Assembly (NCBI GenBank): GCA_004297985.1
Contig: SCRA01000033.1
Location: forward strand, 1-64,000
DNA length: 64,000 bases
Direction of reading: 5' to 3'
From: a bacterium
GTDB taxonomy: Bacteria > Vulcanimicrobiota > Vulcanimicrobiia > Vulcanimicrobiales > SCRA01
The number at the start of each line of letters is the position of its first letter. The stretch's first letter is position 1. The translations under genes and the position numbers were made by a program. Shown in pieces: positions 16,229 through 50,248 of this stretch. Under the pieces are notes generated by a model, which had not been told where the DNA came from, made no database searches, and saw nothing but the letters and a program-made list of their open reading frames with translations.

Positions 16229-17107
16229 TTATTTCATCTTCGGGTCGAGCGCGTCGCGCAGGCCATCGCCGAAGAGGTTGAAGGCCAGCACGGTGACGGT
16301 GATGGCCAGTCCGGGGAAGATCAGCGCCCACGGTGCATTCAGCCAGTAGTCGCGCGCGTCGTTGAGCATCGCACCCCACTCCGGCGCGGGGGGACGCGCC
16401 CCTAGACCCAGGTAGGAGAGCCCCGCTGCCTCCAGCTCCGCGGTAGCGATACCCAGCGTCGCCTGCACCAGCAGCGGCGCAAGGATGTTCGGGAGGATGT
16501 GGCGGCCGATCAGCCTCACGCTGCGCGCGCCGACGGCACGGGCCGCCTCCACGAACTCCATCTCCTTCACTTGCAGCACGCTCGAGCGCGCCAAGCGCGC
16601 GTACTGAGGCACGTAGACCACGCCGATGGCGATCATCAGGTTCGTGACGCTCGGCCCCAGCACGGTGGTGATGCCTATCGCCAAGATGATCGAGGGGAAG
16701 GCCAGCATGACATCCATCAGCCCCATCAGCGCGGCGTCGAGCGCGCCGCCGGCGTAGCCGGCCACGGTGCCGATCAGCGTGCCGGCCGTGATGGCGATCC
16801 CCACGGCTACGAAGCCGATGCGGATCGAGATGCGTGCTCCGAAGACGATACGCGCGAAGAGATCGCGTCCCAGCTTATCGGTGCCAAGGAGATGCTGACC
16901 CGAAGGCGCGGAGGAGCCCAAGGCGAGGTTCTGCGCCAGCGGATCCTGGTGTGCCACGAGCGGTGCGAAGGCGGCGGTCAGAAAGAGGAGCGCGATGATC
17001 GCGGCGCCGAGCAACGCAGCCGGATTGGCGCGAAAGCGTCGCCAGACGTCTTGGGCGAATCCGCGCGGTGCCGGTTCGTCCAGGGCCCGCGGTGCCGTGG
17101 CGATCAC
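16229..17107 (-). CDS. DppC/OppC-type ABC transporter permease
   Basis: A 292-residue inner-membrane permease of the dipeptide/oligopeptide importer class. It has an N-terminal helix after about 30 residues, a periplasmic loop containing HLLGTDKLGRD, and five further helices. The EAA-loop sequence EAARAVGARSVRLIGRHILPN contacts the ATPase. GTG start with GGAGG upstream, 8 bases after the RNase J stop. Oddly, the matching DppB, substrate-binding protein and two ATPases are all absent here, so this half of a heterodimeric channel must work with subunits encoded elsewhere. Confidence 0.88.
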   Translation of the reverse strand: MIATAPRALDEPAPRGFAQDVWRRFRANPAALLGAAIIALLFLTAAFAPLVAHQDPLAQNLALGSSAPSGQHLLGTDKLGRDLFARIVFGARISIRIGFVAVGIAITAGTLIGTVAGYAGGALDAALMGLMDVMLAFPSIILAIGITTVLGPSVTNLMIAIGVVYVPQYARLARSSVLQVKEMEFVEAARAVGARSVRLIGRHILPNILAPLLVQATLGIATAELEAAGLSYLGLGARPPAPEWGAMLNDARDYWLNAPWALIFPGLAITVTVLAFNLFGDGLRDALDPKMK

Positions 17108-30136: not shown

Positions 30137-30457
30137 ATGATTCGCATCATCATCGAGACCGACGACGCCGCGCGCGGCACCGCGCAGGCGCAGGGCCTCG
30201 CGACAACCGCCACAACGGCTGGAATGGCTGCCCCCATCTCCGCCGGTGAGCCTGCTTCGTATCTCCACCACATGGTGGCCACTCAGACGGGCGCGGCCAA
30301 CGTCCTAGCCGTCACGCCGAGCATGGCGCAGGCGCAACCCGCTGTCCCGCTGGCGGCCATCGACGCGGGCGCCGCACCGACGTGGCTCAGCGAAGCCGTG
30401 AAGGAGGCCACCGTTCGCGCAGCCGAGGAGATCTTGCGAAGAGGCGAGGGCATCTGA
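30137..30457 (+). CDS. Small Ala-rich protein of unknown function
   Basis: A 106-residue protein with GGAGGAG upstream of the ATG at 30137 (a GTG 3 bases earlier is too close to the ribosome site). It starts with MIRIIIET, has a low-complexity Ala/Thr/Gln middle, and ends in a short amphipathic helix (AVKEATVRAAEEILRRGEG). No domain is recognised. It follows the 387-residue unknown gene closely. Its stop codon overlaps the first bases of the palindromic repeat at 30457. Confidence 0.6.
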   Translation: MIRIIIETDDAARGTAQAQGLATTATTAGMAAPISAGEPASYLHHMVATQTGAANVLAVTPSMAQAQPAVPLAAIDAGAAPTWLSEAVKEATVRAAEEILRRGEGI

Positions 30458-30563
30458 AACGATCTCCGATCTACGCCATCCCATCGTTGCCAAGAGGCTC
30501 GTGTACGTGGAGCACACCGCGCCTCTTGGCGCCTTGGTCTGAACGTAGATCAGAAGATCGTTT
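30457..30563. repeat. Palindromic repeat, copy 1 (convergent intergenic)
   Basis: About 107 bases that fold as one long interrupted hairpin and fill the gap between two convergent genes. Outer arms are AAACGATCTCCGATCTACG (30457-30475) and its near-complement at 30544-30563. Inner arms are GCCAAGAGG (30489-30497) and CCTCTTGGC (30522-30530). An apical stem pairs GTGTAC with GCACAC except for one mismatch. The minus strand reads AGACCAAGGCGCC before the inner stem and GGCAACG after it, identical to the copy at 49149. It could act as a bidirectional terminator or be a REP-like dispersed repeat. Confidence 0.75.
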
Positions 30564-48400: not shown

Positions 48401-49105
48401 ATGCGGCGCATCGAGCTCGACGGCTACGCAAAAGGGCTAGGGCTCTTGATCACCAATCCCGTGGTGATCGTGCCCCCGCTGCTGGCGGACATGACGGCAA
48501 AACTGTTGAGCTATGCGCTGCTGGGTGGGCCCACAGGCATCGTCGGCTCGATCAGCGGCGGCTTCGCCTCGCTGCTGATCTTCATCATCGAGTGCTTCGG
48601 CTTCGGCGTCGCGATGATCGTGGCGTCGTATGCCTGGCGCATGGGGCGCGCACGCATCGACGTGGCATGGGATGATGCGCGGCGCAAGTTCGGCGAAGTG
48701 GCGATGGCCGCTCTGGGTTTGAACTTCGCGCTTTGGATCGCCGGCATGATCGGCGGCTTTCTGGTCCCCTTCTACGGCGCGCTCGCGCTGACGGTCGTCG
48801 CGGCCTACTTCTTCATCTACACGCTGCCCGCGGCGGCCGTCGGTGGTACGCCCGGTTTCTCCGCGCTGGGCTCATCGGTCGACCGTGCGCGCTCCAATGC
48901 GCCCGCAGCGCTCGTGCTCACGGCTGTCTCCACGGTATTGATCATCCTGCCGCAGCGCTATCTGTTCGGCTGGGCCTACCAGTTCGGCGCCGTCGCGGAG
49001 CTCGCGTTCGAGACGCTCGTGACCGCGATCGTCTTCGGGTATCTGGCCATCGTCACCGTGCGCGTCTACGAGGACACGGCCTTCTCGTTCTGGCGCCGCT
49101 ACTAA
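48401..49105 (+). CDS. Polytopic membrane protein of unknown function
   Basis: A 234-residue inner-membrane protein with about five hydrophobic helices (near residues 15-35, 45-80, 105-150, 170-190 and 200-222). It has no catalytic motif and no family I can name, though the organisation recalls DUF4013-like proteins. AGGAGATACG directly precedes the ATG at 48401, 8 bases after mtnP, so it belongs to that transcript. The palindromic repeat block begins ten bases after its stop. Confidence 0.75.
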   Translation: MRRIELDGYAKGLGLLITNPVVIVPPLLADMTAKLLSYALLGGPTGIVGSISGGFASLLIFIIECFGFGVAMIVASYAWRMGRARIDVAWDDARRKFGEVAMAALGLNFALWIAGMIGGFLVPFYGALALTVVAAYFFIYTLPAAAVGGTPGFSALGSSVDRARSNAPAALVLTAVSTVLIILPQRYLFGWAYQFGAVAELAFETLVTAIVFGYLAIVTVRVYEDTAFSFWRRY

Positions 49106-49114
49106 AGTAAACCA

Positions 49115-49147
49115 CGCCGCTCGGCAACGGTGGGATGGCGCAAGTCA
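49115..49147. repeat. Half copy of the palindromic repeat
   Basis: GCCGCTCGGCAACG, then GGGATGGCGCAA and TCA, match the 3' half of the full copy at 49210-49240 with few differences. Its CCGCTCGGC can pair with the inner 5' arm at 49178-49186, an alternative to the pairing inside the full copy. Confidence 0.65.
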
Positions 49148-49148
49148 A

Positions 49149-49249
49149 GGAATCGCTGATTTCCGTCAGACCAAGGCGCCGAGCGGTGAGGTGTACTTCT
49201 CGTACATGAGCCGCTCGGCAACGCAGGGACGGCGCAAATCAGCGACTCC
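49149..49249. repeat. Palindromic repeat, copy 2 (convergent intergenic)
   Basis: A 101-base inverted-repeat element ending on the base before the holB stop codon. Outer arms are GGAATCGCTGATTT (49149-49162) and AAATCAGCGACTCC (49236-49249), one mismatch. CCGTC/GACGG extends the stem. Inner arms are GCCGAGCGG (49178-49186) and CCGCTCGGC (49211-49219), perfect. The apical stem is TGTAC/GTACA. The core GACCAAGGCGCC before the inner stem and GGCAACG after it equal copy 1, which lies in opposite orientation near 30.5 kb. Confidence 0.78.
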
Positions 49250-50248
49250 TTAAGCTAACTGGACGCGGAGCCAGTCCAGCACGAAGCCCGGCGGCACATT
49301 GGTCGCGGCCATCTCCTGCGCCTCACCGGCGGCCGCGAGGGCAACCATGATCCTCGCCGGGTCGCGGCGCGGCCAGCTCGCAAGGCGGGCACTCTCGTCG
49401 GCTACCAGGGCCCGCTGGGCGTCGCCCGAGGCGCACACCACCAGCCAGTCGCGCAGCAGGCGCTTGATCTCGCGCAGCACGCCCTCGAGGTTGTCGCGCG
49501 CCACCCACTCCGCCTCGACCATTCCCCCGCGCAGCGCGCCGTCGAGCCACTCCGCCGCCTGACGGCGCAAGTCGGCAAAGGCGCCGCCTTCAACGGCCGC
49601 CAGCGCACGCGAGAGATCTCCCTGGGCAAGCCCCGCCGCCGTGCGGGCCTGGTCGGCGCCGGCTCCGCGCGCGCGCAGCAGCGCTTCGATCTCGGTACCG
49701 CCGACCGGGCCGAAGCGCACGCCGATCATGCGCGAGCGAATGGTCGCGAGGAGGCGCTCGGGGACATCGGTGGTGAGGATCATCAACACCTGCGGCGGCG
49801 GCTCCTCGAGGAACTTCAAGAGCGCATTGGCGGCCTCGTGCGTTGCGAACTCGATGTCGCCCAGGATCACCACGCGCCAGCCTCCTGAGTAGGAGCGCAG
49901 CGACATCTGTCGCACCAGATCGCGCGCCGTCATCTCCTCGCTTTCGTGGAAACCGGCGCCGCCCGTGCCCATCCTCACGATCCCAACGGAGACGAAGAGG
50001 TCGGGGTGAGTGCCGGCCTCCACTTGCACGCAGGACGGACAGCAGCCGCAGTATCCGACGACGCCCGCCTTGGGTTCGGTACAGAGCAGCGACTTGGCCA
50101 ACAGCTTTGCGAAGGTCTTCTTGCCTACACCGGGAGGGCCGTGAAAGAGGTACCCGTGCGCCAGCCGCTCTGGACGGAGCCGCTCGAAGAGCGCGCGTGG
50201 TCCCGCCTGGCCGATCACCTCGAACGAGAGCGTGCGCCCCGCACTCAC
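49250..50248 (-). CDS. holB: DNA polymerase III delta' subunit (clamp loader)
   Basis: A 332-residue AAA+ clamp-loader subunit. It keeps a P-loop (GPPGVGKKTF) and has the zinc-binding cluster CGCCPSC, the linker-like MSLRSYSGGWRVVIL, and sensor-1 motif LMILTTDVPERLLATIRSR. Together with DnaX it loads the beta clamp. Its GTG overlaps the tmk stop by four bases (GTGA). The order R3H ATPase-tmk-holB resembles the tmk-holB pairing found in many bacteria. Ends against the palindromic repeat. Confidence 0.88.
   Translation of the reverse strand: MSAGRTLSFEVIGQAGPRALFERLRPERLAHGYLFHGPPGVGKKTFAKLLAKSLLCTEPKAGVVGYCGCCPSCVQVEAGTHPDLFVSVGIVRMGTGGAGFHESEEMTARDLVRQMSLRSYSGGWRVVILGDIEFATHEAANALLKFLEEPPPQVLMILTTDVPERLLATIRSRMIGVRFGPVGGTEIEALLRARGAGADQARTAAGLAQGDLSRALAAVEGGAFADLRRQAAEWLDGALRGGMVEAEWVARDNLEGVLREIKRLLRDWLVVCASGDAQRALVADESARLASWPRRDPARIMVALAAAGEAQEMAATNVPPGFVLDWLRVQLA

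Follow-up and report, generated by a model that had tools for sequence, protein, structure and literature searches.

A family of hairpin repeats of about 100 bases abutting stop codons in one order of Eremiobacterota

Palindromic repeats in bacterial genomes are usually explained by the action of RAYT or DDE transposases. The attC sites of integrons form another class of folded sites: they follow stop codons, always in the same orientation, their folded strand is the antisense one, pairing is preserved over sequence, and no target duplication is produced. REPs are dispersed intergenic palindromes that occur between convergent or codirectional genes and form degenerate mosaics (PMC3733652; for REPINs, PMC3116915). 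Most of them lie within 20 bp of the 3' ends of open reading frames, and REPs of the GTAG type often provide TAG stop codons (PMC3733652). Bacterial MITEs (e.g. ERIC, NEMIS/Correia, and RUP) are non-coding elements of 70-300 bp that fold when transcribed, and intrinsic terminators consist of a GC-rich hairpin located 3' of a stop codon. For RNA genes, compensatory changes of several bases at once have been described to arise by template switching, a mutation mechanism in which both arms of a hairpin are altered together (PMC8794818). The element presented here belongs among the dispersed palindromes of bacteria, whereas an assignment to MITEs, attC sites, or terminators fails in each case on a defining feature.

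Two copies of the element are found in the window, i.e. the whole stretch of 64,000 nucleotides that was analysed (Table 1). Copy 1 is a nested hairpin of 101 nt. The segment 49147-49251 folds with -57.8 kcal/mol (z = -7.8), a value equalled by none of 200 shuffled sequences, and the copy matches the covariance model of the family with 91.8 bits. An earlier, sequence-only reading had described this inverted repeat with its outer, inner, and apical stems; the nested architecture is borne out, with a short middle stem in addition. The lack of a T-run asserted there also holds, as none was found on either side of copy 1 when both strands of the window were read. The last base of the repeat indeed adjoins the holB stop codon, but the exact fit between the two genes that had been claimed is wrong: the membrane protein gene of that reading ends 43 nt before the repeat, and this interval holds a right-half fragment of another copy, of which 49116-49147 align to element positions 64-95 (BLAST). 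A Pfam search with this convergent gene gave no match. The layout of a half copy plus a full copy beside holB is kept in the sister species G003 (L040) and is missing in G001 (L278), where only a few bases lie between the two genes.

The recurrence of the core near 30457-30563 proved real as well. Copy 2, on the opposite strand, folds with -67.5 kcal/mol (z = -11.1; none of 200 shuffles equals it) and matches the covariance model with 88.4 bits. The conserved blocks that are identical between the copies are 15-18 nt long; GGCAACGNNGGGAYGGCG and TCAGACCAAGGCGCC are common to both with zero mismatches. The gene that ends directly before copy 2 had no match in a Pfam search. At the orthologous site of G003, copy 2 is absent and a short palindrome is found instead.

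Table 1. Coordinates of the two element copies and of neighbouring features in the window
Feature	Position	Strand	Remark
'Sense' gene of copy 2	30137-30457	+	106 aa
Stop codon of this gene	30455-30457	+	TGA, directly before copy 2
Copy 2	30458-30562	-	fold-favoured orientation on - strand
Convergent gene	48401-49105	+	stop TAA 49103-49105; membrane protein according to the sequence-only reading
Right-half fragment of another copy	49110-49147	+	same orientation as copy 1
Copy 1	49149-49249	+	fold-favoured orientation on + strand
Copy 1, outer stem	49147-49162 with 49236-49251		
Copy 1, middle stem	49164-49167 with 49231-49234		short
Copy 1, conserved internal-loop strands	~49174-49177 and ~49220-49225		
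Copy 1, inner stem	49178-49187 with 49210-49219		
Copy 1, apical stem	49191-49196 with 49202-49207		
holB stop codon	49250-49252	-	TAA, distance 0 from copy 1
holB-like gene	49250-50248	-	DNA polymerase III delta' subunit, PF13177; 'sense' gene of copy 1

It is well supported that both copies are members of a previously undescribed family of hairpins of about 100 bases in one bacterial order. A covariance model (R1), built from 28 sequences, matched 72 of the 103 genomes of this order of the phylum Eremiobacterota at E <= 0.001; at E <= 1e-6, 64 of the 103 were matched versus none of 46 genomes of the phylum outside this order. Element-carrying genomes harbor from one to more than 60 copies, numbers that are lower bounds since the order-wide searches scored a limited set of candidates per genome; most of the genomes sampled are metagenome assemblies. 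The window's own genome contains four full copies together with degenerate ones (BLAST) and yields seven matches to R1. In G012, the element-richest genome, 60 exact core 13-mers and 59 right-half 18-mers were counted, compared with two and zero for the respective reversed controls. Core identity is 0.87 within genomes, an average dominated by G012, versus 0.64 between genera, and all 62 cores of G012 have their closest relative in G012 itself. Thus, the family amplifies within lineages. The genome G067 differs, with the closest relative in its own genome for one of its seven cores only.

The copies are multiple and unlinked, share a conserved fold, and exhibit compensatory changes. Rfam yielded no match in the window at the gathering score, and the best match of a permissive search reached 14.4 bits (E 2.5), in agreement with the earlier statement that no known RNA family shows such a layout. 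No described repeat in Eremiobacterota was found in the literature. Pattern matches beyond this phylum (Azotobacter, Burkholderia, Paracoccus, and others, as well as one viral contig) are ascribed to chance, since the best of them scored 23.6 bits with the covariance model. The covariance-model search proposed by the sequence-only reading, which had considered a new dispersed repeat, a bidirectional terminator, or a regulatory RNA, did return further copies and conservation. The first of these identities is strongly supported by the many copies, their order-wide occurrence, the lack of an Rfam match, and presence/absence differences between relatives.

The better-folding strand of each copy is denoted '+' in the following. 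On this strand, an outer stem of 16-20 bp, the sequence of which varies from copy to copy, is followed by a middle stem (CAG.CC / GG..TGG) and by an internal loop, in which AGG(C/A)GC lies opposite GC(A/G)ACGA; the variable positions of this loop appear to covary, C being combined with A and A with G. The inner stem, a second internal loop (GAA / GA), and a GTGTAC-like apical stem complete the structure, and the consensus of the variable ends reads GGAAGC/GCTTCC. Among the 104 copies outside G012, standard pairs account for 94.8% of the pair cells versus 66.2% in shuffled data, double-changed cells number 1068 versus 253, and covariation is seen at 37 of the 39 stem pairs, figures that lean towards the model because the alignments were fitted to it. 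When the partners are slid by one column, pairing falls below 40%. Two structural variants were encountered: one copy (L141, G034:C23:164286-164403) has its apical hairpin duplicated (GAAGTTTACTATGGTACCGAAGTTTACTGTGGTAAA), and at L103 591-844 (DAHUXH010000013.1) the element core and flank are repeated in tandem with a period of 87 nt.

The placement of 174 copies from 48 genomes was determined relative to genes predicted by a custom codon-usage gene caller, not a curated annotation. When read on the strand opposite to '+', 148 copies follow a co-oriented gene and 18 a gene of the other orientation. Of the 148, 126 lie within about 16 nt of the stop codon of that gene (46 of 54 in G012 and 80 of 94 in the other 47 genomes), and 98 of 157 copies lie between -3 and +6 nt from this sense stop, compared with 31.3 +/- 3.6 expected if they were placed uniformly in their gaps and oriented at random. 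Convergent gaps hold 77 copies, codirectional gaps 79, and divergent gaps 3. In the convergent gaps, the element's own side alone touches a stop codon in 57 cases and the other side alone in none (p = 1.4e-17; copies within one genome are not independent, and p-values over copies are indicative). The stop-codon link that the sequence-only reading mentioned in passing is a real signal: contact with a stop codon is family-wide and restricted to one particular side, while the convergent gap seen at holB is no general feature. TAA, TAG, and TGA are all abutted, about half of the stops being other than TAG. An enrichment of TAG is evident in G012 (30 of 46 stops versus a background of 32%, p = 1e-6) and not clear in the other genomes (p = 0.23).

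Base pairing of the stem has a tendency to run on for a few pairs into the stop codon. About ten copies carry the terminating TGA of the gene within their outer arm (distance -11), and in several of the copies located beyond about 16 nt, a duplicated right half intervenes between the stop codon and the full copy (L117, L077, L085, and L088). Three convergent gaps of G012 harbor two full copies in mirror orientation (L099 2257-2531, L102 4593-4833, and L085 1479-1748); at L099 and L102, both copies abut the stop codon of their own gene, and at L085, one does so directly and a half copy intervenes before the other. In G024, three element copies lie within about 700 bp (L162, G024:C35:67671-68388). 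The gene caller found no coding gene in the 3-kb locus L041 of this region, the edge of which resembles the 3' end of a 16S rRNA (AAGGAGGTGATCCAGCCGCACCT), and the L162 copies may be situated behind an rRNA operon.

A bidirectional terminator tied to convergent gaps is rejected as the general identity of the element because 79 copies lie between codirectional genes and contact with a stop codon is single-sided, in one orientation. Like an intrinsic terminator, the element is a GC-rich hairpin 3' of a stop codon; unlike one, it comprises 100 nt, lacks a T-run, shares a core among its copies, and follows few genes only, most genes being devoid of it.

The two strands of the element are not equivalent. 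On '+', 418 G-U pairs stand against 64 A-C mismatches, and after removal of five columns of conserved wobbles, 149 against 56. Outside the wobble columns, the G-U excess is carried by genomes other than G012 (118 versus 34), the difference in G012 (31 versus 22) not being significant. With RNA parameters, '+' folds better in 160 of 171 copies. In a test per genome, which avoids the non-independence of copies although related genomes are still not fully independent, '+' gives the better fold in all 48 genomes under RNA parameters and in 47 of 48 under DNA parameters. The better fold and the G-U excess indicate that structural selection acts on the strand antisense to the followed gene, which counts against a role of the hairpin in the mRNA of this gene as the main selective cause. 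An active antisense strand is compatible with the data as ssDNA and as RNA alike. A regulatory RNA, as suggested earlier, is possible, though the fold-favoured strand is antisense to the followed gene.

These results bear on the main rival of a mobile element, namely a 3'-UTR hairpin under selection that would define or protect mRNA 3' ends, block antisense transcription, or act at translation termination. Such a hairpin would have spread by rare duplication, the survivors being those copies that adjoin stop codons. It would account for the use of all three stop codons, which no simple DNA motif explains, and for the strong covariation of the stems. The followed genes include, besides holB, the housekeeping genes rpsD, nusG, rpoD, clpX, and hisA (identified by eye from sequence), sites can be common to a whole genus, and REPs show a similar proximity to gene ends (PMC3733652). 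Nevertheless, we regard it as unlikely: the mRNA strand, in which G-U pairs of the antisense strand become A-C mismatches, folds worse, a T-run is absent, and no promoter or terminator motif in the flanks is conserved across the family. Furthermore, copy numbers range from 0 to more than 60 among related genomes, and relatives without the element at the same gene have nothing in its place.

Presence and absence of the element at orthologous sites was observed among close relatives. In the genus g4, the sequence TCTAG is followed by the element in G054, whereas it continues directly with GGTAGCC in G034 and with GTCACCC in G044. In G049, an insertion separates two close codirectional genes, and nine species lack the insert. 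The net insert amounts to about 102-110 bp in clean pairs of occupied and empty sites. Other 'empty' sites retain a collapsed stem 3' of the stop codon and represent decayed copies, so that part of the polymorphism is due to loss. Each of eight g13 genomes has a single copy, which lies at the same pstA site in the seven sampled; movement is therefore rare in this genus. The possibility that the outer arms are copied from the host at the insertion site was discarded, as both arms are missing from clean empty sites (L280 and L281 versus L205); at least there, the arms arrive with the element.

Of 50 copies, 13 are flanked by fragments of the element on the side away from the stop codon and four on the side facing it (half copies), while none of 44 control flanks contains any. 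Such a placement would result if new copies inserted next to the stop codon and displaced older ones outward, as they may do. A different arrangement is found in the window's own genome (L006, G000:C35, ~16310-16420), where a short element with a deleted core comes right after a separate, perfect GC-rich hairpin of about 23 bp (GCTGCGACGAGAAGGGGACCGG...).

Inverted-repeat ends, the lack of coding capacity, insertion polymorphism, and a CTAG-like flank in some copies are reminiscent of a MITE mobilized by a DDE-type insertion sequence. However, the termini of the element are its least conserved part (identity in G012 of 0.64 for the arms versus 0.88 for the core), contrary to the conserved terminal repeats of MITEs, and no target-site duplication was found (direct match of 3.78 versus 3.64 +/- 0.09 in permuted data). 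The element also keeps a fixed orientation relative to the stop codon, an asymmetry not expected from a symmetric target. A MITE origin is accordingly judged highly improbable; the search for a partner insertion sequence was not exhaustive.

Within G012, 222 changes relative to the genome consensus pair are double and compensated, 57 are single with pairing retained, and 45 are single with pairing lost. The changes cluster in adjacent runs (65 versus 36.4 +/- 4.3; reached in none of 5000 permutations), and the outer stem of L083 has ten double and no single changes around an untouched core. These arm changes are poorly accounted for by two-step point mutation and well accounted for by template switching from arm to arm. 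Compensatory runs and the joint alteration of both arms are shared with the hairpins maintained by template switching (PMC8794818), a mechanism reported for RNA genes and not for a dispersed, probably mobile family such as this one.

A REP/REPIN family moved by a RAYT, an IS200/IS605-like Y1 HUH transposase, is among the closest described counterparts. The single-strand hairpin, the extragenic position close to the 3' ends of genes in convergent or codirectional gaps, and the dispersed and degenerate copies are common to both, and TAG is frequent just 5' of the hairpin, as seen in G012. In contrast to the units of 20-40 nt of REPs and REPINs, which keep a conserved GTAG or CGTC tag at their end, the element is a single, untagged hairpin of 100 nt that keeps its interior loops and varies at its ends. 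The flanking TAG is the stop codon of the host gene and occurs in about half of the copies only, unlike the REP tag, and the element, unlike REPs, REPINs, and BIMEs, has a single orientation relative to the abutted gene. Genes for Y1 transposases (IS200/RAYT, PF01797) were detected in four of the 103 genomes, none of them rich in the element. Mobilization by a RAYT or another Y1 enzyme is thus largely refuted in these genomes, Y1 being absent where the element is abundant, and this origin is very unlikely.

Two further enzyme classes were searched for. A resident reverse transcriptase of the group-II type was dismissed as the mobilizer: RVT_1 genes are present in 12 of the 103 genomes, are absent from G012, G067, G088, G057, and G000, and show no correlation with the element. 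Nor is there an expanded set of integrases, G012 having just three tyrosine recombinase genes (PF00589). The latter observation also weighs against an attC-like site recombined as ssDNA by a tyrosine recombinase, the least probable of the origins considered. With attC sites, the element shares a long imperfect hairpin with variable arms that stay paired despite sequence change, a functional antisense strand, the fixed orientation directly 3' of stop codons, and the lack of a target duplication. The conserved core sites at the base of an attC hairpin (RYYYAAC ... GTTRRRY, the R and L boxes) are missing, though, conservation is found at the centre and not at the ends, and the copies lie behind chromosomal housekeeping genes, not in cassette arrays. 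A comparison of left-half and right-half matches in G012 gave no evident sign of an autonomous version whose halves enclose a gene, and the searches for Y1, RVT_1, and tyrosine recombinase genes yielded no mobilizing enzyme.

Taken together, the family is probably, though by no means certainly, one of non-autonomous mobile palindromes of about 100 bp, specific to one order of Eremiobacterota, with a REP-like position and an antisense action as a single strand. According to this model, the antisense strand would be the active single strand, either as ssDNA or as RNA, and a putative enzyme would insert a unit of about 105 bp directly behind a stop codon, always in the same orientation and with no target duplication. 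After insertion, the arms would be partly rewritten by arm-to-arm template switching along with selection for pairing. Copies may then decay through loss of the core, leaving short hairpins behind. As a by-product of the insertion, the mRNA of the host gene would carry a very stable 3'-terminal hairpin, as with REPs. A difficulty for mobility is that TAA, TAG, and TGA would all have to be recognised alike by a DNA or RNA transaction. A more specific version, in which a folded single strand is targeted in one orientation and with no target duplication to stop codons as such by an enzyme class novel for bacterial palindromic repeats, is tentative, and the chances are rather against it; if true, the targeting could mean that insertion is linked to the termination of translation or to the 3' ends of mRNAs.

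The family combines an order-wide distribution and strong structural conservation with a position locked to stop codons in one orientation, in genomes where no RAYT-type enzyme was detected. It provides a clear natural case of long stems rewritten on both arms, which bears on the origin of compensatory changes. If its mobility is confirmed, the element would represent a system for inserting about 105 bp beside genes while leaving them intact, and it would offer a route to study how the ends of genes are recognised.
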